Of a stretch of 64,000 nucleotides of DNA, positions 29,281-38,369 are shown one piece after another; positions within the stretch are counted from its first letter, which is position 1; each line of letters opens with the position of its first letter. The DNA is from Bacteroidetes bacterium RIFCSPLOWO2_12_FULL_35_15 (GTDB taxonomy: Bacteria > Bacteroidota > Bacteroidia > 2-12-FULL-35-15): NCBI GenBank assembly GCA_001769385.1, contig MEPB01000049.1, positions 62,001 to 126,000 of the forward strand. Direction: 5' to 3'. The position numbers and the translations under genes were made by a program. The notes beneath the pieces were generated by a model. It saw only the letters and a program-made list of their open reading frames with translations, did no database searches and was not told the DNA's origin.

Positions 29281-30843
29281 TTATTTCTGAAGTATTTTTT
29301 TTATTTCAAGTAATTCAACGTCAAAATAAAGGACTGTTTTTTCTGGAATGCCGGCATCAGGTATTCCTTTTTCTCCATATGCTAAGGAGTAAGGAATTAT
29401 TAATTTGCGCCCTTCGCCTAAGCACATTCCTTTCAGACCTTCATCAAAACCTTTTATTACTTTTCCTTTTCCTAAAACAAATTCTAAATTTTTATGGCTT
29501 TCTCTGGATGAGTCAAAAATTTTTCGTATCCCCAAAGAGTCTATTACATAGCCTGTGTATGCAACTGATATATTGCTTCCTGTATCAATTGGGATTCCGC
29601 TTCCTTTTCTCACTTGAATATATTTTAAGCCCGAAGTGCTTTTTACAGTGTCTAAGCCCGATACATCAAAAAATGGATAGGGTTGTGTTTTCATAATATG
29701 AACATCATAAATCAATGCTTTATTTGGTGGAATAATTCCCTTCCCTCTATTTCCAAATGCTAGTTTTGCAGGAACATAAATAATTGCTTTTTCTCCATTT
29801 GTTAAATAGGTTAAACCTTCGCCAAGACCAGGAAATAAACCTTGTGATCCGGGACGAAGAACAGCAGATTCTCCACGTTCAATAGATTTATCAAAAATGA
29901 TTGGATGGTTCAGTGAATCAATAAAATACCCGATATAGTCAAATAATACAACATCCTCAGAACTAATTCTTTTTCCTTCTTGTTTTAAAACAGGTAAGAT
30001 TTTTATTCCGTTTTTTCCAAAAATGGTATCATTGTTTATTGGATGAAAGAATGGATTATCTGAATTTAATAATTCAATATCAAAATAAACAGTAGAATTT
30101 CCTGGAATAATACCAGAATCTTCTTTGCCAAAACCAAGGTTCGGAGGAATAACAAAAGTAGCTTTTTCGCCAACTTTCATGGTTCCTATTCCTTCATCTA
30201 AGCCTTTTACCATTCGCCCGGTTCCTAGTTGAAAAATAGCAAATGTGCTGTTGGTGAGTGAAGATTGAAAAACACGTTTATATCCTTTTTTATTTAATAC
30301 ATAGCCTGTAAACTGCATGGTAACTTCATTATATGGCTTTGCGATTTCACCTTTGCCCGGACTGATTAAAATTTTCTTTAAGCCGCTTGGAAAAAAAACA
30401 GTATCCTTTCCAACTAAATTGTAGAATGCTTGTTCTATTTTTACAACTTTTACTGCCAGTAATAATGTGGTGTTAGCAGGTATGCTGCCTATTTTTTTTT
30501 CACCATAAGCCAATGATGGCGGTATACGAAATTGTGCACTATCTCCTACTGATAATAGTGATATTCCTTCTTCCCATCCTTTTAATACTTCTTCCTGTCC
30601 TAAAATAAATGTATATGGTTTCCCTGAACTTAAATTACTGTCAAATACACTGTCGGGATTAATTCGTGTTGTAAAATTAACATGGATACGGTAACCTTTT
30701 TTTGTTTTCTCACCAGTGCCTTTTTTAATAATAGAGTATTCTAATCCACTTGGAGTTTTTTTATAATTTATTTTCTGAGATTGAGCAAATAGGTTCGTAG
30801 CACAAAATATCACTAATGTAAAGAGTTTAAATCTTGTTTTCAT
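29281..30843 (-). CDS. Exported protein with four FKBP-type peptidyl-prolyl isomerase domains
   Basis: 520 residues: a signal peptide (about 1-20, ending LFAQ) then four FKBP-like domains at roughly 28-135, 148-258, 275-385 and 400-515. Each has the core pattern of a glycine-rich flap and a VLKGWEEGISLLSVGD / MVKGLDEGIGTMKVGE / LFPGLGEGLTYLTNGE / VIKGFDEGLKGMCLGE segment, followed by PPSLAYG-type loops (PSLAYGEK, PNLGFGKE, AKLAFGNR, YSLAYGEK). Domains 1, 2 and 4 keep most aromatic pocket residues; domain 3 looks the most divergent. It could be a periplasmic isomerase/chaperone. It lies 77 bp behind the usher-like gene on the same strand, so it may assist that system. Confidence 0.9.
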   Translation of the reverse strand: MKTRFKLFTLVIFCATNLFAQSQKINYKKTPSGLEYSIIKKGTGEKTKKGYRIHVNFTTRINPDSVFDSNLSSGKPYTFILGQEEVLKGWEEGISLLSVGDSAQFRIPPSLAYGEKKIGSIPANTTLLLAVKVVKIEQAFYNLVGKDTVFFPSGLKKILISPGKGEIAKPYNEVTMQFTGYVLNKKGYKRVFQSSLTNSTFAIFQLGTGRMVKGLDEGIGTMKVGEKATFVIPPNLGFGKEDSGIIPGNSTVYFDIELLNSDNPFFHPINNDTIFGKNGIKILPVLKQEGKRISSEDVVLFDYIGYFIDSLNHPIIFDKSIERGESAVLRPGSQGLFPGLGEGLTYLTNGEKAIIYVPAKLAFGNRGKGIIPPNKALIYDVHIMKTQPYPFFDVSGLDTVKSTSGLKYIQVRKGSGIPIDTGSNISVAYTGYVIDSLGIRKIFDSSRESHKNLEFVLGKGKVIKGFDEGLKGMCLGEGRKLIIPYSLAYGEKGIPDAGIPEKTVLYFDVELLEIKKILQK

Positions 30844-30920
30844 TCTGACAATAATTTTTTTATTTTTTTGCCAATAAAAGAATATTGGTAATTGAGAGTT
30901 TTCAATATCGGTTTGAGAAA

Positions 30921-33900
30921 TTATTTTACAGGAATAATACCTTCTTTAGTGAAACTGATTACAATAGCATCTTTGATACCTCTGCTAAGTAATTCCTTTT
31001 GGACACTCTGAGCTTGTTCTAAAGATTGGTATCCGCTAAGAAAACATGTTATTGTGCCGGTTTTTTTATCTTTATAGGATTCAATCTTAATGCCGGTACT
31101 CAATGCATGAGCAATTACATTTTTTGGTAACCCCGATTTATTAGCTAATATCTGAACCCCAAATAGTTTTTTATCTGCATAGTTTAAAAGGGTGGTTTCA
31201 TTTATTTTGCTTCTTTCAATTTTAGTAATATCTTGGTTTGTAAGCTTAGTGTTGAGAACTAACTTACCTAATAAAATATCAATAAAGGTATCCAATTCGG
31301 TCTTAACCGGACTGTTTAAACCTTGGCCTTCCGAAATTACCTTTCCATCCGGTCCAAATTTTTTATTAACTACTTTTCGTTTTTTCTCAATGATATAAAA
31401 AGTGTGATAATAACTTTCAACACCATCTGATAATTCAATCGGAATATCATTTTGAGTTAATTCAAAACTAGCTCCTAATATTTTTTCATCAAATTTTAAG
31501 ATGTATTTTCCATAGGGTACATAAAATTTAAAATTTCCACGATTATCTGTAACACTGGTTACTACTTTACCAAGGCTATCTATTAAAAATATTTTTATTC
31601 TGGAAATATCTATTTTCTCGGTAATATCGCTACTAAATTTTTCCCTGTCAATTTGTACATTACCCAATATTTGAACTCCTTTTGAAAAAGGAAGGTAAAT
31701 AACAGCAGGTCCGCAAACATCCATGCTATCCGGTACAACAGCAAACCATGCACCAATATCCACCAAGGGCAAAACCTGTAAGCTGTATTTCCCAAGTCCA
31801 ATATTAATGAAACTTGCTTCTCCCTTTTCATTACTGAGTACTTCAAACTCATTCATGCGAATTACAATATTTTCCAAAGGAATTTCATCCGCATCAAATT
31901 TTTTATTCCCATTAATATCCAGAAAAACTTTGAAGTTAGCATTACAAAATAATTTTTTTCTGAATTTTTTTGGAATAGGGATTCCAAAGTCTTTTTTTAT
32001 ACCTACACCCAACTGTAAGTTTTTACTTTTATTCTTCTTGTCGCTTGATTCCAAATAAAAATTATTGCTTGCTCCAGGCAGATAAGTGTATTTATAACTT
32101 TCTGAAATATTGTAGTTTAAGGCAGCATTAATATTAAAGCTCCAACCTCCATTGGTGAAATAAAATAGCTGAGTAAATAAACCCATACTATGTCGATTGC
32201 TTACATTGGTATAATTATAATTAACAGTGTTTTCCCAAATGAAATGCTTGTTTTTAAATTGGTACTGATTACTTATCGACCCTGAAATAGCTTGCGGATA
32301 CCTCTTTTGCTGCGTAAGTATATATACTAAATTGCCCAATCCTTGTGGACCATAAAAATAGCGTAAATATAAGTTCCAGGTTCGATAACTCAAAAACGAA
32401 TTAGTTTGGGCTGTAAAAAAAGTACCCAATTCAGGATAATTTAACAATTTATTATATCCTCCTTTTACAAAAAATCCCATTCTGAAATTTTCATCCATGT
32501 TGAATGTGTTTACAGACAATTGAAGTCCGGAGCTTAATAGTTCTTCAGCAAAATAATTGGAATAATTGAGATAAATGCCGGGAGTGTAATTTACTTTTGT
32601 TTTTGGAGGTAATGCAAAAGTTAATACATTATTAAACATTATGTTATTTTGTGCAAAGGCGGGGATTGTATAAATATTATAATTATCCGTTAATCGTATT
32701 TCCAGATTATTTTTAAAATGATAAGAGTTTGTTAATGCAATACCTATATCTTTTGTACTATTATTTACTAATTGTCCTGCTGTAAAACCGCTGGTTCCTT
32801 CCCTATAGGTGAAATTAAGACCTGAATTTCCTTTCCCTTTCAAATAATTTGCATTATAGTATAACGAAAAATAATTTCTGTTGGAAATTGTATTAAAAGA
32901 ATTGACTAAAGTGTATTGCCCCAGTACTCCTAAATTATGATTTTTATTTACCCGGTAACTTAAATTGGCATTAAAGCCATTTGAAAAAATGCCGGTAATA
33001 TAATTAGTTCTGTCATAACCGATTCCTGCCCTTAGTGCATTAAATTTAACTGCATAAGCTGCCCCGAGTGAGGTACTTTGATTGTTCAGGAAACTTAGTC
33101 CATTTCTTAAAAAGTATGCTCCTACTGTATGATGGGGTGTAATGCGGTATCCTGCTGCAATTCCTTTTCCATTTGATATTCCTCTGAGGTTGTCGAAATT
33201 TAAACCTATTCCGCTACCGACAGAAACAAAACCTTTTTCATGATAATAACTGATAACGCCATTTGATCCACTAATAATTCTGTTGGTATATTTGTAATAA
33301 GTGAAACCTGTTTGTAAAGAATAATCGAGGCGGGATTTTTTATCTAAAATATAATTTCCATAAAATATAACATTCATAATAGGTTGTTGCCCTAGAATAT
33401 TATTAATACTTGCAATCATGGTAACAGGAATAACTGAACTACCATATGGATTAATACGGGTAGCATCATGAAGTTTTACAAAATCCATGCTGTTTGCCAG
33501 TTTTACAAAATCTACTTTTTTATTTCTGCTTCCTCCTTTTCCTTTTGTGACACCAACTTCTGACGCTTTTAAAAAAAGACCATAATGTTTTTCTTGCTCC
33601 ATAAAATCGGGCATATAACCATAGGTATCGATTCGCTTAACATTACGCTGTGGTTTTTGAATTTGTACGCTAAAAGGAACCAAAGTATCGGAAAACGGAG
33701 GTAAGGTAAATTCCATATAATTTTTCTTCAAAAATTTTCCGGTGGTGTCAGAAACAATAAAATCTTTTCCAATTTTATTCATGGATAAGATTACTTGTTG
33801 TTCCTCATCTCCATCATTTGATAAATTAATTTGAAAGGGAGCAGTACTTTCATGATTTAAAAAATAAATTCGGGGTCTGGGTAATATATGCATCTGCCAA

Positions 33901-34364
33901 TTGCTTATTTTTGGGTGACCGGCTAAAAAGCTTGCAATAGCCATTTGTCGGCCTTCTTCAGTGGCAATAAAAACCGTAATATCATATTTAGTTCCACCTT
34001 TTGCTGCTTTGTTGTTAGTAACTAACCTTATCGGAACAAATAGGGAGTCACTTGGAGCAAGGGTGTATTTTTTTTCTGTCTTGTTTAAGGTTCGCCAACC
34101 ACCGGGCAAACTCATATTGATGGTAAAAGTGTATTCTTTTACGTTGTTATTTTTTACTTTTAAAACATTACTGATTACAGCCATTTCTTCATATTCAACA
34201 TCTGGGAAAAGAAATTCTGCAGTTAATGCTTTTTTAGAACTGGCAAGAGAAGTAGCAGTTTGTGAATAACTGGGGAAAGTCAACTGAAAACCAAACAAAA
34301 CCAAAAGAATAAATTTGGTTTGAAAAGAAAATTGCAGATGTCTGTTATTCGTTCGTATTATCAT
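30921..34364 (-). CDS. Usher-like outer-membrane protein with C-terminal SPOR domain
   Basis: 1147 residues. Signal peptide (about 1-35); periplasmic beta-domain region (about 45-245) with VISNVLKVKNNNVKEYTFTI and SLFVPIRLVTNNKAAKGGT; a long barrel-like region (about 290-790) of alternating strands (LDYSLQTGFTYYKYTN, LRAGIGYDRTNYITGIF, NLSYRVNKNHNLGVLGQYTL); a small Ig-like domain with an SdrD/usher-type DINGNKKFDADEIPLENI start (about 807-866); a second one (about 905-985); and a SPOR domain (about 1065-1147; FGVQILANKSG to QSVQKELLSRG). The barrel flanked by small beta domains, and tight coupling to a subunit gene (TAAATG), suggest a chaperone-usher-type secretion pore. It is not a recognisable FimD/PapC, so the role is inferred. 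Confidence 0.72.
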   Translation of the reverse strand: MIIRTNNRHLQFSFQTKFILLVLFGFQLTFPSYSQTATSLASSKKALTAEFLFPDVEYEEMAVISNVLKVKNNNVKEYTFTINMSLPGGWRTLNKTEKKYTLAPSDSLFVPIRLVTNNKAAKGGTKYDITVFIATEEGRQMAIASFLAGHPKISNWQMHILPRPRIYFLNHESTAPFQINLSNDGDEEQQVILSMNKIGKDFIVSDTTGKFLKKNYMEFTLPPFSDTLVPFSVQIQKPQRNVKRIDTYGYMPDFMEQEKHYGLFLKASEVGVTKGKGGSRNKKVDFVKLANSMDFVKLHDATRINPYGSSVIPVTMIASINNILGQQPIMNVIFYGNYILDKKSRLDYSLQTGFTYYKYTNRIISGSNGVISYYHEKGFVSVGSGIGLNFDNLRGISNGKGIAAGYRITPHHTVGAYFLRNGLSFLNNQSTSLGAAYAVKFNALRAGIGYDRTNYITGIFSNGFNANLSYRVNKNHNLGVLGQYTLVNSFNTISNRNYFSLYYNANYLKGKGNSGLNFTYREGTSGFTAGQLVNNSTKDIGIALTNSYHFKNNLEIRLTDNYNIYTIPAFAQNNIMFNNVLTFALPPKTKVNYTPGIYLNYSNYFAEELLSSGLQLSVNTFNMDENFRMGFFVKGGYNKLLNYPELGTFFTAQTNSFLSYRTWNLYLRYFYGPQGLGNLVYILTQQKRYPQAISGSISNQYQFKNKHFIWENTVNYNYTNVSNRHSMGLFTQLFYFTNGGWSFNINAALNYNISESYKYTYLPGASNNFYLESSDKKNKSKNLQLGVGIKKDFGIPIPKKFRKKLFCNANFKVFLDINGNKKFDADEIPLENIVIRMNEFEVLSNEKGEASFINIGLGKYSLQVLPLVDIGAWFAVVPDSMDVCGPAVIYLPFSKGVQILGNVQIDREKFSSDITEKIDISRIKIFLIDSLGKVVTSVTDNRGNFKFYVPYGKYILKFDEKILGASFELTQNDIPIELSDGVESYYHTFYIIEKKRKVVNKKFGPDGKVISEGQGLNSPVKTELDTFIDILLGKLVLNTKLTNQDITKIERSKINETTLLNYADKKLFGVQILANKSGLPKNVIAHALSTGIKIESYKDKKTGTITCFLSGYQSLEQAQSVQKELLSRGIKDAIVISFTKEGIIPVK

Positions 34365-35018
34365 TTACATTTCTTGTAAACAAAATTTTATATGTAATTC
34401 ATATCGTCCGGGACGATAAATGAAACCTAATATTGGATCATAAGGTTTTAAGCGGTAATCAATTGTAAAGCTAAATTCATTATAATTTGTTAAAGAACTT
34501 CCTGCTCCATTGGTTTGCAATGCAGGATTACACGTTCCGGCAGGTGTCAGAAGAAAAGGATCGTTAATAATATCAATTACACTGCCTGTTAATGGTGCAA
34601 ATTGTTGCCATAATCCGCTATTTATAGGAGTGTTACAAACATTACTTACCCGAAGTTCCAAAAGATCTAAAGCTGGAGTAACGCCAACACCAGCACCTCC
34701 ATAGGGTACCATGGTTTCCCAGTCAGTAGCAACTCCCCAGGCATTATTTGAAACAATCATGCTTAATTTCCATTTGCAGGGTTGCGCAGGGATGGTAATA
34801 ACTTTTAAGCGAATAATACTTGAACCATTAAGCGTAATGCCTCCTTTATATTCGCTAAAAGAATCGAAAATTAATTCGATTCGGTCAGGAGTTGTTAAAA
34901 CGATGTCGCTAAGTGCTTGATCACAGTTATTTGTAGGTGGCATACCACACTGGGAATAGCCACAATCTATAAATAAAGCAAAAAATAAGAAAATGAGTAT
35001 AAAACGGGAACTCCTCAT
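34365..35018 (-). CDS. Exported minor subunit candidate of the usher locus
   Basis: 217 residues with a signal peptide (about 1-23). It is paralogous to the next upstream gene: RIELIFDSFSEYKGGITLNG corresponds to NIDFVFDQISEYVGGITQYG there, the middle has WETMVPYGGAG, and the end has FTIDYRLKPYDP and RPGRYELHIKFCLQEM. The mature protein begins with a short Cys-containing segment (QCGMPPTNNCDQAL) instead of the strand-like leader of the major subunit. It ends flush with the usher-like start codon. I infer a tip or adaptor subunit; no known fimbrial family is recognised by eye. Confidence 0.68.
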   Translation of the reverse strand: MRSSRFILIFLFFALFIDCGYSQCGMPPTNNCDQALSDIVLTTPDRIELIFDSFSEYKGGITLNGSSIIRLKVITIPAQPCKWKLSMIVSNNAWGVATDWETMVPYGGAGVGVTPALDLLELRVSNVCNTPINSGLWQQFAPLTGSVIDIINDPFLLTPAGTCNPALQTNGAGSSLTNYNEFSFTIDYRLKPYDPILGFIYRPGRYELHIKFCLQEM

Positions 35019-35030
35019 AGTTAAATAATA

Positions 35031-35063
35031 AAAAGAAAAAGGAGGATTCCTCCTTTTTCTTTT
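35031..35063 (-). terminator. Strong hairpin between major and minor subunit genes
   Basis: A perfect inverted repeat with 16-base arms (35031-35046 and 35048-35063): an A-rich outer part, a GGAGG/CCTCC core and a T-rich outer part. It has the form of a bidirectional intrinsic terminator and lies 10 bp after the major subunit stop codon and 13 bp before the minor subunit start, suggesting partial termination inside the operon. Confidence 0.8.
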
Positions 35064-35072
35064 AAAAAAAAT

Positions 35073-35831
35073 TTATTGATTTTCTGTTAACACATATTTT
35101 ACATTCATTGTGTAAACACCTGGTTGAGCATAAGTACCTGGTGCAAGAGCAGCAGTTACACCAGCATTACTTGCTGCATTTGGAAATGTTGCAGGTAAAC
35201 CTGGTACAATACGATAGTCAATAGTATAATAGTAGCTACTACCAGAACCATAAATACCGGCTTGTGCAACTAAATACGAACCACCTACTACAAAATCTAC
35301 AGCAAGGTTACCACCAGCGATGTATTTTTCACCATCAACAGGTCTAACATAAGGAGTAGCACTTGCATAAATATTATTGCTACCTGTTAAAACTGGAGAT
35401 GTTACAAAAGCTGCATTGTAATCAGCAAAGTTGGTTGCTGCACCAGGAGCAGGATTTGCTTTGTCTTGGCGCATTTCCAGTGCTGTGATAGGCAAAAGAT
35501 CAATAGCAGCAGGATCAGCTCCGCCACCATAAATTACTTGTTGATCCCAATTTGCAGCTCCTGTAGAAGAATATCCTACTGCATATAAATCCCAACTTAC
35601 AGTTGAACTTACTTGCAAAGAAGTTGCTCCATATTGAGTAATACCACCAACATATTCAGAGATCTGATCAAACACAAAATCAATGTTTGAAGGACCGGTC
35701 ATATTTAACTGAAGAATTGGCTGCAAATCCATTGTTATTGTAACATTTGACTCATCAACTAATTGAGCATTTGCATTTGAGCTAATACCCATTGCAGCAA
35801 GAATTGCTGCACCACATAAAATTTTTTTCAT
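35073..35831 (-). CDS. Exported major subunit candidate of the usher locus
   Basis: 252 residues. Clear signal peptide (MKKILCGAAILAAMGISSNA, cleavage after NAQ region). The mature protein begins with an alternating hydrophobic strand (NVTITMDLQPILQLNM) before the shared domain (IDFVFDQISEYVGGITQYG; WDQQVIYGGGADPAAIDLLP). It is rich in Gly, Ala, Ser, Tyr and Thr with no cysteine in the mature part, and ends PGVYTMNVKYVLTENQ. Composition, signal peptide and the downstream terminator fit an abundant fibre subunit. It lacks the lipobox of Mfa/Fim pilins and type IV pilin features. Confidence 0.7.
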   Translation of the reverse strand: MKKILCGAAILAAMGISSNANAQLVDESNVTITMDLQPILQLNMTGPSNIDFVFDQISEYVGGITQYGATSLQVSSTVSWDLYAVGYSSTGAANWDQQVIYGGGADPAAIDLLPITALEMRQDKANPAPGAATNFADYNAAFVTSPVLTGSNNIYASATPYVRPVDGEKYIAGGNLAVDFVVGGSYLVAQAGIYGSGSSYYYTIDYRIVPGLPATFPNAASNAGVTAALAPGTYAQPGVYTMNVKYVLTENQ

Positions 35832-35971
35832 CTTGTCTGTTTTAAGTTATTTATTTATTTAATTTTCTGTAAACCACGCGTACAGTTCCGCTTTTGAAAA
35901 TCAAAGCCTTGCAATGATTTTTAAAAAATTTTTTAATGTTTTTTTTGTTTTTTTTAAAGTTTAAAAGTGTT

Positions 35972-36892
35972 TTAATCAATTGTGAACTCTAATTCTGCAG
36001 TTTGAAGCTCTTCTTTATTTCCAAAATCAAGAACTGCCAATACTGAATATTTTCCTTTATCAAGTTCTTTGGGTAATTCATATCTAAATTCCTTTTCGTA
36101 TCCGGGTAATATTCCAAATTGTTTTACTTTTAATTTTGTTTGTTTCCCGGTGAGTAAATTGGTTAATTCAATATAATACAAACAATAGCCAATACCATCA
36201 CCGGTATTTTTAGCTTTCATTACTAGTGATCTGCTCTTTTTTAATTCATTTTTTTCATATTTTAAAGATTTTATTTCTACATTATTGATTATCACATTTG
36301 GTGGGTTTTGATGAATATTAATTCCAAAACCAATACCTGTTTTAATACCCAAAGCGATTGCTGTTTTACTTGCATCGGGAGCTTCTAATTTAGGTCTTTC
36401 AATTATTTGATCTAAAACTAACGTGGTCCACATAGCAATAGCATAATCATCTCCTGGTGGAATGTCAACTGTAACGCTAATGGTCTTATGTTCATGCGGC
36501 TTCATTTCTAATAAGGTTGGTGATACAACAATGTATTTTGAAAGGGCATAATGATATTCTGCTCCAACCCCAATGCTTTCCGTGCCATCTGCCCCAACAC
36601 CATAATCCTGGAAATTAATCTGAAAACTAATAGCTTTTCGTGTATCATTTGTTACTTTGATAGTTTTAGTTTGTTGACTGCCAGGCTTTACATTAAAGCG
36701 CAAGGTAGATGGTGAAACCGAAATGCCGGTGTTGGTAGTATCATTATCAACAGGAACATCCTTTGGCTCTATTTGTTTTATAGAATCAGGGCTTGAAACA
36801 GCTTTTTTTAATGTATCCTGTGCTATTAAAGATGAGGAAACTAAGCAAACAATTAGCAAAAATAAAATTCTTCCAGTTAGGTATTTATGCAT
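35972..36892 (-). CDS. PapD-like periplasmic chaperone candidate
   Basis: 306 residues: signal peptide (about 1-25, ending SLIAQ), a linker, then an Ig-like N-terminal domain (about 56-175) opening GISVSPSTLRFNVKPGSQQTKTIKVTND and containing a sheet-edge pattern VSPTLLEMKPHEHKTISVTV. A second beta domain (about 185-304) has SLVMKAKNTGDGIGYC and ends AVLDFGNKEELQTAELEF. Two stacked Ig-like domains of this kind are the shape of PapD-type chaperones or DUF916-type proteins. First gene of the locus, 140 bp before the major subunit. Chaperone role is inference from fold pattern and position. Confidence 0.65.
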   Translation of the reverse strand: MHKYLTGRILFLLIVCLVSSSLIAQDTLKKAVSSPDSIKQIEPKDVPVDNDTTNTGISVSPSTLRFNVKPGSQQTKTIKVTNDTRKAISFQINFQDYGVGADGTESIGVGAEYHYALSKYIVVSPTLLEMKPHEHKTISVTVDIPPGDDYAIAMWTTLVLDQIIERPKLEAPDASKTAIALGIKTGIGFGINIHQNPPNVIINNVEIKSLKYEKNELKKSRSLVMKAKNTGDGIGYCLYYIELTNLLTGKQTKLKVKQFGILPGYEKEFRYELPKELDKGKYSVLAVLDFGNKEELQTAELEFTID

Positions 36893-37012: not shown

Positions 37013-37388
37013 ATAAAATGTATGAATGATGTAAATAGTTTCAAAAATTTTATAACTCATTTTTAATAACGAACGTGTAATGAACTTTTACTCGAAAATA
37101 CAAATAAAGTTTCAAGGAGAAACCAATAATTTGTCAAGTAACTCAATATAAGCGATAAACTTATTTAAAAAAAAGATATTCATAACAAACAAAATCAACA
37201 TTTTTTTTTAAATAATAAAATTCACAAAAAATTAAAAGTGTAATTTAATATCTTAAATTTACGATGTATCGCGTAAAAAAAAATTAAAATAAACTTTACT
37301 TATTCATAAAAACAGGCTAATCAATTACCCTCTTTTCTGATTATTGAATTATTTAAATGAACAGAAACTCATGGCATAATAATTGAAT

Positions 37389-37396
37389 TATATTTG
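37389..37396 (+). promoter_or_regulatory. -7 element (TATATTTG) for the DUF4476 gene
   Basis: Matches TAnnTTTG; the start of transcription would be near 37402, which lies after the upstream in-frame ATG at 37383 and so supports ATG 37416 as the true start. Confidence 0.6.
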
Positions 37397-37415
37397 CAAA
37401 CCAAAACATAAAAAT

Positions 37416-38369
37416 ATGAAACGATTATCTACTTTAATCCTTTTATCTATATTATTAATACAAGGAATTGTGGCTCAGAACAACAACTTAGTTGTTTACT
37501 CGCAAGAAGGTTTGAAATTTACAATTATTTTAAATGGCATCAGACAAAATCCTCAACCGGAAACCAACGTAAAGGTTACTAATTTAAATGCGCCAAATTA
37601 TCAAACGAAAATAATTTTCGCAAACAATATGGCTGACATTAATCAAAATGTGTATTTAACAAATGGTGCTGAAACTACAAATAATACAGAGTTTACCTAT
37701 TCAATTGTAAATGTGAAAGGTAAGTACAAATTAAGGTTTAAAAGTATAGCGCCTGTTTCTTCTGTTGTTGAAACTGCAAGTCTCCAGCAAACAGTGGTGG
37801 TTTATACCCCTGTAGCTGTTTCCAACACAACAACTACTACTTCAACTACCACTACTAATTCCGGAAATCCCACTGGTGAAAATATAGGAGTAAATATGAA
37901 TGGAACAGGAATAAATATTAATATAAATAGCACTAGTCCGTCTAATTCGAATTCAACTTCCACAACAAGCTATTCAACAACCACAACAACTACTACAACA
38001 GGTGCTGGGAATCCGAATAATACTAGTCCAGGAAACAACAATTATGTTTTGCCAGGTTATTCAGGTGTTTATGGATGTCGTCATCCAATGAGTTCGGTTG
38101 ATTTTGAAAGTGCTAAACAATCTATCAAATCAAAAGGATTTGACGAAAGCAGATTGATTTTAGCAAAGCAAATTATTGGAAACAATTGTCTGCTTTGTTC
38201 TCAAATAAAAGAACTGATGGGTTTAATGAGTTTTGAGGAAACTAAATTAGAATTGGCAAAATTTGCATGGCATCATAATTTGGATAAAGGAAATTATTAC
38301 AAATTAAACGATGCCTTTAGTTTCGAATCTTCAATTGAGGAACTAAACAACTACACTCAAAGTCATTAA
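37416..38369 (+). CDS. Exported DUF4476 domain protein
   Basis: 317 residues from ATG 37416 (MKRLSTLILLSILLIQGIVA signal peptide). An N-terminal beta domain (about 20-130: NNLVVYSQEGLKFTIILNGI) is followed by a low-complexity linker rich in Thr, Ser, Asn and Gly (about 140-225), and a C-terminal helical DUF4476 domain (about 225-317) with CRHPMSSVDFESAKQSIKSK and SFEETKLELAKFAWHHNLDK. The family is common in Bacteroidota; function unknown. Confidence 0.86.
   Translation: MKRLSTLILLSILLIQGIVAQNNNLVVYSQEGLKFTIILNGIRQNPQPETNVKVTNLNAPNYQTKIIFANNMADINQNVYLTNGAETTNNTEFTYSIVNVKGKYKLRFKSIAPVSSVVETASLQQTVVVYTPVAVSNTTTTTSTTTTNSGNPTGENIGVNMNGTGINININSTSPSNSNSTSTTSYSTTTTTTTTGAGNPNNTSPGNNNYVLPGYSGVYGCRHPMSSVDFESAKQSIKSKGFDESRLILAKQIIGNNCLLCSQIKELMGLMSFEETKLELAKFAWHHNLDKGNYYKLNDAFSFESSIEELNNYTQSH

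Follow-up and report, generated by a model that had tools for sequence, protein, structure and literature searches.

The locus and its genes

The window, by which we mean the whole stretch of 64,000 nucleotides that was analyzed, belongs to contig 49 of a genome of 5.39 Mb that is 99% complete. Between positions 29281 and 36892 it holds five open reading frames on the minus strand, with plus-strand genes on either side. A preliminary description, drawn up from the letters of this DNA, had read these frames as five genes that follow each other, and all five were confirmed at their positions. The barrel, chaperone, and subunit genes are each present in a single copy in this genome, with no second copy elsewhere. 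The genes and the features within and between them are the following.

35972..36892, minus strand: putative two-Ig chaperone, periplasmic and exported (306 amino acids)
35073..35831, minus strand: sub1, putative major filament subunit (precursor of 252 amino acids; matches PDB 9ikk/9ikj)
35697..35765, minus strand: putative donor strand at the N terminus of mature sub1, an extension with the sequence QLVDESNVTITMDLQPILQLNM (near-invariant in homologues)
35031..35063, minus strand: terminator-like hairpin with a 15-bp stem in the sub1/sub2 gap, proposed attenuator of the downstream genes
34365..35018, minus strand: sub2, minor subunit, candidate tip or terminal subunit (217 amino acids; fold family of sub1)
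30921..34364, minus strand: predicted usher-like outer-membrane barrel protein (1147 amino acids; AlphaFold2 model and Foldseek)
33558..34223, minus strand: barrel protein, two predicted N-terminal Ig-like domains, residues 48-269 (read from the model's strand pattern)
31977..33434, minus strand: barrel protein, predicted 26-strand transmembrane barrel, residues 311-796 (model)
31386..31949, minus strand: barrel protein, two C-terminal SdrD/CarboxypepD-like beta domains, residues 806-993 (weak Pfam matches; SdrD in the PDB)
30924..31142, minus strand: barrel protein, SPOR-like C terminus, residues 1075-1147 (common to the SPOR-bearing relatives)
29281..30843, minus strand: exported four-FKBP protein (520 amino acids; PF00254, four times)

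Searches of the five proteins against Pfam and NCBIfam returned named families for the FKBP domains only. Sub1 and sub2 gave nothing in Pfam, not even below the threshold, and the homologous loci in other families are likewise without a named family. The four FKBP domains that had been read in the last gene product are evident (PF00254, FKBP_C, E 2e-93), and this protein also scores 185 bits against the NCBIfam model NF053689 (BamJ; cut-off, 100), a value that is summed over the four FKBP domains. A DUF4476 gene (37383-38369 of the window, plus strand) adjoins the operon divergently and is kept in the closest relative (L025).

Conservation of the gene cluster

Profiles of the barrel core and of the chaperone were searched in 395 Bacteroidia genomes from 196 genera. 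The barrel core was found in 56 of these genomes (about one-seventh of the sample) and in 36 of the genera, the chaperone was found in 57 genomes, and the two occur together in 53, where 8 would be expected (hypergeometric, 4e-57). When 50 barrel loci were examined, the chaperone gene was at most four genes away in 42 and a recognized subunit was present in the neighborhood in 41. The order chaperone, sub1, sub2, barrel, which the preliminary description had read as chaperone-major-minor-usher, is repeated across many Bacteroidia families, and in some other families the chaperone gene is divergent or is placed after the barrel gene. Chaperone, sub1, sub2, and barrel form a unit that is conserved over many families of the class.

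The FKBP gene lies within four genes of the barrel gene in 7 of the 50 loci, and it adjoins the barrel gene in the window's genus and two other families only. As it is near the barrel in so few loci, it counts as a local accessory, belonging to a few lineages, and not as a general member of the operon. Of the five genes whose co-conservation had been named as a check, the four core genes are co-conserved, and the FKBP gene is so only in a few families. When the phylum was sampled evenly, barrel matches at E 1e-10 were obtained in 17 genomes, and the five matches outside the class Bacteroidia are to the C-terminal beta domains only.

Several other genes were seen around these loci. Some members of the window's genus have one more gene between the barrel and FKBP genes, for an exported protein that ends in a SPOR-like part, and an OmpA-family protein (PF00691) is encoded after the FKBP gene (L023:10664-15073 and L024:5873-10136). 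In the variants with a divergent chaperone gene, this gene is adjoined by one for a protein with MORN-like repeats, recognized by eye (L031:572-1774 and L032:3841-5100). Outside the Bacteroidota, chaperone-like hypothetical proteins are encoded on two Deinococcus plasmids (NZ_CP034185.1:14104-14829, 24.9% identity, E 1e-3; NZ_CP026517.1:314099-314797, 25.2% identity, E 0.1).

Sub1 and the TLP-1 fibrils

A phmmer search of the PDB with sub1 hit 9ikk ("Cryo-EM structure of TLP-1b") and 9ikj ("TLP-1a"), which were both released on 2024-11-13 and contain 16 chains each (E 2e-61, residues 24-250, about 50% identity). The match starts at residue 24, which is the predicted mature end, and reaches the C terminus, spanning the whole mature length with the N-terminal strand. 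The predicted fold also agrees with the two entries (Z 20.5, with rmsd 3.3 and 207 residues aligned, and Z 20.1). The model behind this fold match is a fused sub1-stop-sub2 reading, folded in search of strand exchange, with a pLDDT of 62.6, in which the N-terminal strand is unplaced and the groove is without confidence, and for this reason the model was used for the TLP-1 match only. Based on the full-length sequence and the fold match, N-terminal extension included, sub1 can be considered a TLP-1 filament protein, and the fibre that had been read from this locus now has a homologous filament protein of solved structure. Using TLP-1b as the query on the 395 genomes, we found the window's own sub1 in second place (50% identity). 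Every genome with a TLP-1 homologue (30/30) also carries the chaperone and the barrel (p 6e-31). Extra TLP-1-type subunit genes were seen apart from the operon in three genomes (G289:C1:2435565-2436272, G125:C28:10945-11640, and G063:C50:5825-6580).

In the fibrils of the CryoSeek work, the N-terminal strand of one subunit is said to complete the Ig-like domain of another subunit several positions away, and the authors reportedly suggested uncharacterized bacterial pili as the identity of the fibrils. We take TLP-1a and TLP-1b to be the fibrils of this work (PNAS 2024), which reportedly came from pond water. The PDB entries contain the fibre protein alone, whereas the present proposal adds an operon, a host phylum, and a pathway of assembly. 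In a 2026 review, the pond filaments are listed as never identified (PMC12967142). With the locus described here, these orphan cryo-EM fibrils would be linked to a bacterial group, to one operon with candidate genes for each step, and to a testable pathway, so that the question of who makes them becomes a gene-deletion experiment.

The proposed donor strand, sub2, and tip-like proteins

No stretch that we saw is better conserved than the 20 residues at the start of mature sub1, QLVDESNVTITMDLQPILQL, and VTITMDLQP[IV]LQL is near-invariant among 26 aligned sub1 homologues. In the alignments, this N-terminal extension is present in the solved TLP-1 chains and absent from sub2, the body of which corresponds to the sub1 body without the N-terminal strand. 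The two subunits had been described as paralogues, and the profile of each family indeed matches members of the other, typically at E 1e-7 to 1e-20. As sub2 is without the strand, it could accept a strand and could not donate one, which would fit a position at the tip or the end of the fibre; sub2 is a candidate tip or terminal subunit.

At several loci of distant relatives (L105, L106, and L108-L113), small subunits are encoded together with a protein of 343 to 478 amino acids, the last ~140 residues of which are a subunit domain. A profile made from the small subunits only finds this longer protein at best domain E values of 1e-17 to 5e-30. Judged from its sequence, the longer protein has the architecture of a tip adhesin. 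Several of the loci L105-L113 are in finished genomes, often with two copies per genome, and a chaperone and a barrel protein of 930 amino acids are encoded alongside. In one family (L080, L081, and L084), sub2 is of double length (441 to 461 amino acids) and its subunit-like part lies in the second half; this long sub2 is possibly an adhesin form.

Type V (Mfa/Fim) pili of the Bacteroidota are assembled by donor-strand-type polymerization from precursors that are lipoproteins. To our knowledge, they have no dedicated chaperone or usher. The system proposed here would share with them the phylum and the donor-strand-type polymerization. However, neither sub1 nor sub2 has a lipobox (the mature ends are Q-L and Q-C, respectively) or a match to the Mfa/Fim families in Pfam, in agreement with the earlier view that these subunits are not lipoproteins and that this is not a type V pilus.

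The hairpin between the subunit genes

The hairpin in the sub1/sub2 gap has a z value of -2.4. A comparable hairpin is found in 23 of 24 homologous sub1-sub2 gaps, nearly all of them beating at least 48 of 50 shuffles, and the sequences of these hairpins differ between loci. In the chaperone-sub1 gaps, hairpins are weak and are present in only 5 of 19. The natural reading would be partial termination at the hairpin, leaving sub1 in excess. A scan for sigma-70 promoters gave nothing above chance.

A proposed chaperone-usher-like assembly pathway

We consider it probable that the five-gene region is a chaperone-usher-like pilus operon of the Bacteroidota that builds a TLP-1-like filament of sub1. 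Its product would most likely be a hair-like fibre made by a chaperone-and-gate pathway that is new for this phylum. For this species, we infer the following steps. Sub1 would reach the periplasm by Sec and would be held there by the two-Ig chaperone, which caps the open Ig-like fold. The complex of chaperone and subunit would then dock onto the barrel protein at its periplasmic Ig domains. Subunits would be exported through the barrel, and the N-terminal strand of each newcomer, VTITMDLQPILQL, would displace the chaperone from the groove of an earlier subunit. Such strand exchange would result in a TLP-1-like tubular filament of sub1, and sub2, which is without a donor strand, may start or cap the fibre. 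The hairpin after sub1 would make sub1 the most abundant product, and the FKBP protein may aid folding in some lineages. If so, a chaperone-usher-like pathway would be brought to a phylum that is known mainly for type V pili.

The barrel protein

The preliminary description had read the 1147-residue protein as a barrel with flanking beta domains, and the AlphaFold2 model of its core, made with 49 sequences, agrees with this at a pLDDT of 84.5. In the residue numbering of the model, the two Ig-like domains span 1-222, the 26 strands of the barrel 264-749, and the two beta domains 759-946. A Foldseek comparison, as had been suggested, gave FimD/PapC ushers as the top eight matches in the PDB (E 3e-13 to 5e-9), with TM-scores to the model that are low (0.25-0.37); LptD (4e-7) and TonB-dependent receptors (1e-6) rank below them. 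In the VIA ranking, which is mostly over the barrel part, MtrB (Z 20.4) stands above FimD (Z 16.0) and PapC (Z 15.3); a family missing from its listing was not counted as evidence of absence. The plug of the expected usher topology is absent from the model, where no domain is inserted between the barrel strands and the longest loop has ~20 residues. The Usher family PF00577 has no match in the barrel protein, with a control usher scoring 115 bits, and at the sequence level this protein showed homology to ushers in the C-terminal beta domains only. Ushers have 24 strands and one N-terminal domain, whereas 26 strands and two N-terminal Ig domains are predicted here. The C-terminal part has sub-threshold Pfam matches to SpaA/SdrD_B, and the profile of the barrel family finds SdrD in the PDB at E 2e-9. 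The SPOR-like C terminus varies among relatives, and weak Pfam SPOR matches are present in homologues. As far as the model goes, the barrel protein has an usher-like layout.

It is conceivable, but unlikely, that sub1 forms its filament on the surface by spontaneous polymerization, in the manner of TasA-like or type V systems, and that the barrel is a passive pore or a surface anchor. The lack of a plug and of an usher sequence signature would fit a passive barrel, as would MtrB being the best VIA match of the barrel part, and the SPOR-like and SdrD-like parts suggest anchoring. However, the barrel has a dedicated two-Ig chaperone that is conserved together with it, and Foldseek over the whole protein favors ushers (E 3e-13 versus 4e-7 for LptD). 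We prefer a barrel that exports chaperone-bound subunits.

The putative two-Ig chaperone

The best PDB match of the deep chaperone profile is EfmWxLIP1 (E 4e-5, over both Ig domains), a Gram-positive two-Ig protein from a family that binds WxL domains (PMC10599100). When tested directly, the profile gave 43 bits with WxLIP and 31 bits with the PapD_N-positive chaperone of a DUF4402 operon. The 19 bits obtained with an Acinetobacter pilus chaperone are not decisive, since an unrelated protein reaches 17 bits at best. Pfam matches to WxLIP_PGBD and MSP-like Ig domains are below threshold, PF06030 (DUF916) reaches 19.3 bits under a cut-off of 27.3, PF11797 (DUF3324) is absent, and the PapD families PF00345 and PF02753 gave no match above the Pfam cut-off. 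Going by these profile scores, the chaperone is related to both the Gram-positive WxLIP and the pilus chaperones. The resemblance to PapD/DUF916 proteins that had been suggested for it is therefore seen in the profile matches to WxLIP and to the PapD_N-positive chaperone, but not in any Pfam match above cut-off.

The kinship with WxLIP raises a second alternative, in which the locus is a Gram-negative counterpart of WxL/WxLIP systems and the two-Ig protein is the permanent partner of cell-wall-held surface adhesins that form no long fibre. In line with this, WxLIP is what the two-Ig protein matches best by sequence in the PDB, and WxL clusters combine two WxL proteins, one small and one large, with a WxLIP (PMC10599100). 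We nevertheless regard it as quite improbable. WxLIP has a transmembrane helix, whereas the two-Ig protein terminates at the second Ig domain with no such helix after it. WxLIP systems belong to Gram-positive hosts without an outer membrane, whereas a barrel is present in this locus, and the homologue of sub1 was solved as a 16-chain assembly. The subunits also have no detectable similarity to WxL proteins in the one test made, in which they gave no profile match to the protein encoded beside a WxLIP gene, a weak test because that protein itself is without a Pfam WxL domain. Least probable of all is an unrelated periplasmic or outer-membrane assembly (carbohydrate uptake, envelope lattice) that uses Ig proteins and makes no fibre: nothing specific speaks for it beyond the proteins being without named families, and sub1 is strongly homologous to a solved multi-subunit assembly and also to the subunit domain of two-domain adhesin-like proteins.

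Relation to chaperone-usher and DUF4402-type systems

The proposed pilus operon has in common with the classical and archaic chaperone-usher systems (PapC/FimD, Csu) the gene set of a chaperone, subunits, and a large barrel, the Ig-like subunits with a putative donor strand, and a predicted barrel fold that is nearest to FimD/PapC in Foldseek. It differs from the classical systems in that there is no PapD or Usher match above the Pfam cut-off and no plug. That the locus would work like a chaperone-usher system is well supported, and in this sense the chaperone-usher-like fibre locus of the preliminary description stands; membership in the classical family is borne out neither by sequence nor by a plug. 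We lean somewhat toward a separate class of Bacteroidota pili making TLP-1-type fibrils, with a plug-less usher and a chaperone that links PapD-type and WxLIP-type proteins, a class that would stand as an independent branch of chaperone-usher secretion or as a very early one.

The DUF4402-type systems, found on a Polaromonas plasmid (L116) and at three loci from the window's genus (L035-L037), resemble the present one in a homologous chaperone (hhalign E 6e-7), a similar gene order, and the C-terminal SdrD-like domains common to both barrels. They differ in their DUF4402 subunits and in an usher with a plug-like segment, as read from its sequence. Homology of sub1 and sub2 to the DUF4402 pilins was sought and none was detected. 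A homology of the barrel protein to the DUF4402 or Polaromonas usher was considered and rejected, as the sequence similarity is confined to the C-terminal beta domains. A search of the window's genome for a DUF4402 usher gave SPOR matches only. The three loci from the genus (L035:8748-14939, L036:3086-9676, and L037:8826-15190) encode DUF4402 subunits, a PapD-like chaperone, and a barrel with the plug-like segment and a SPOR end, and operons like these are also present on Polaromonas and sphingomonad plasmids.
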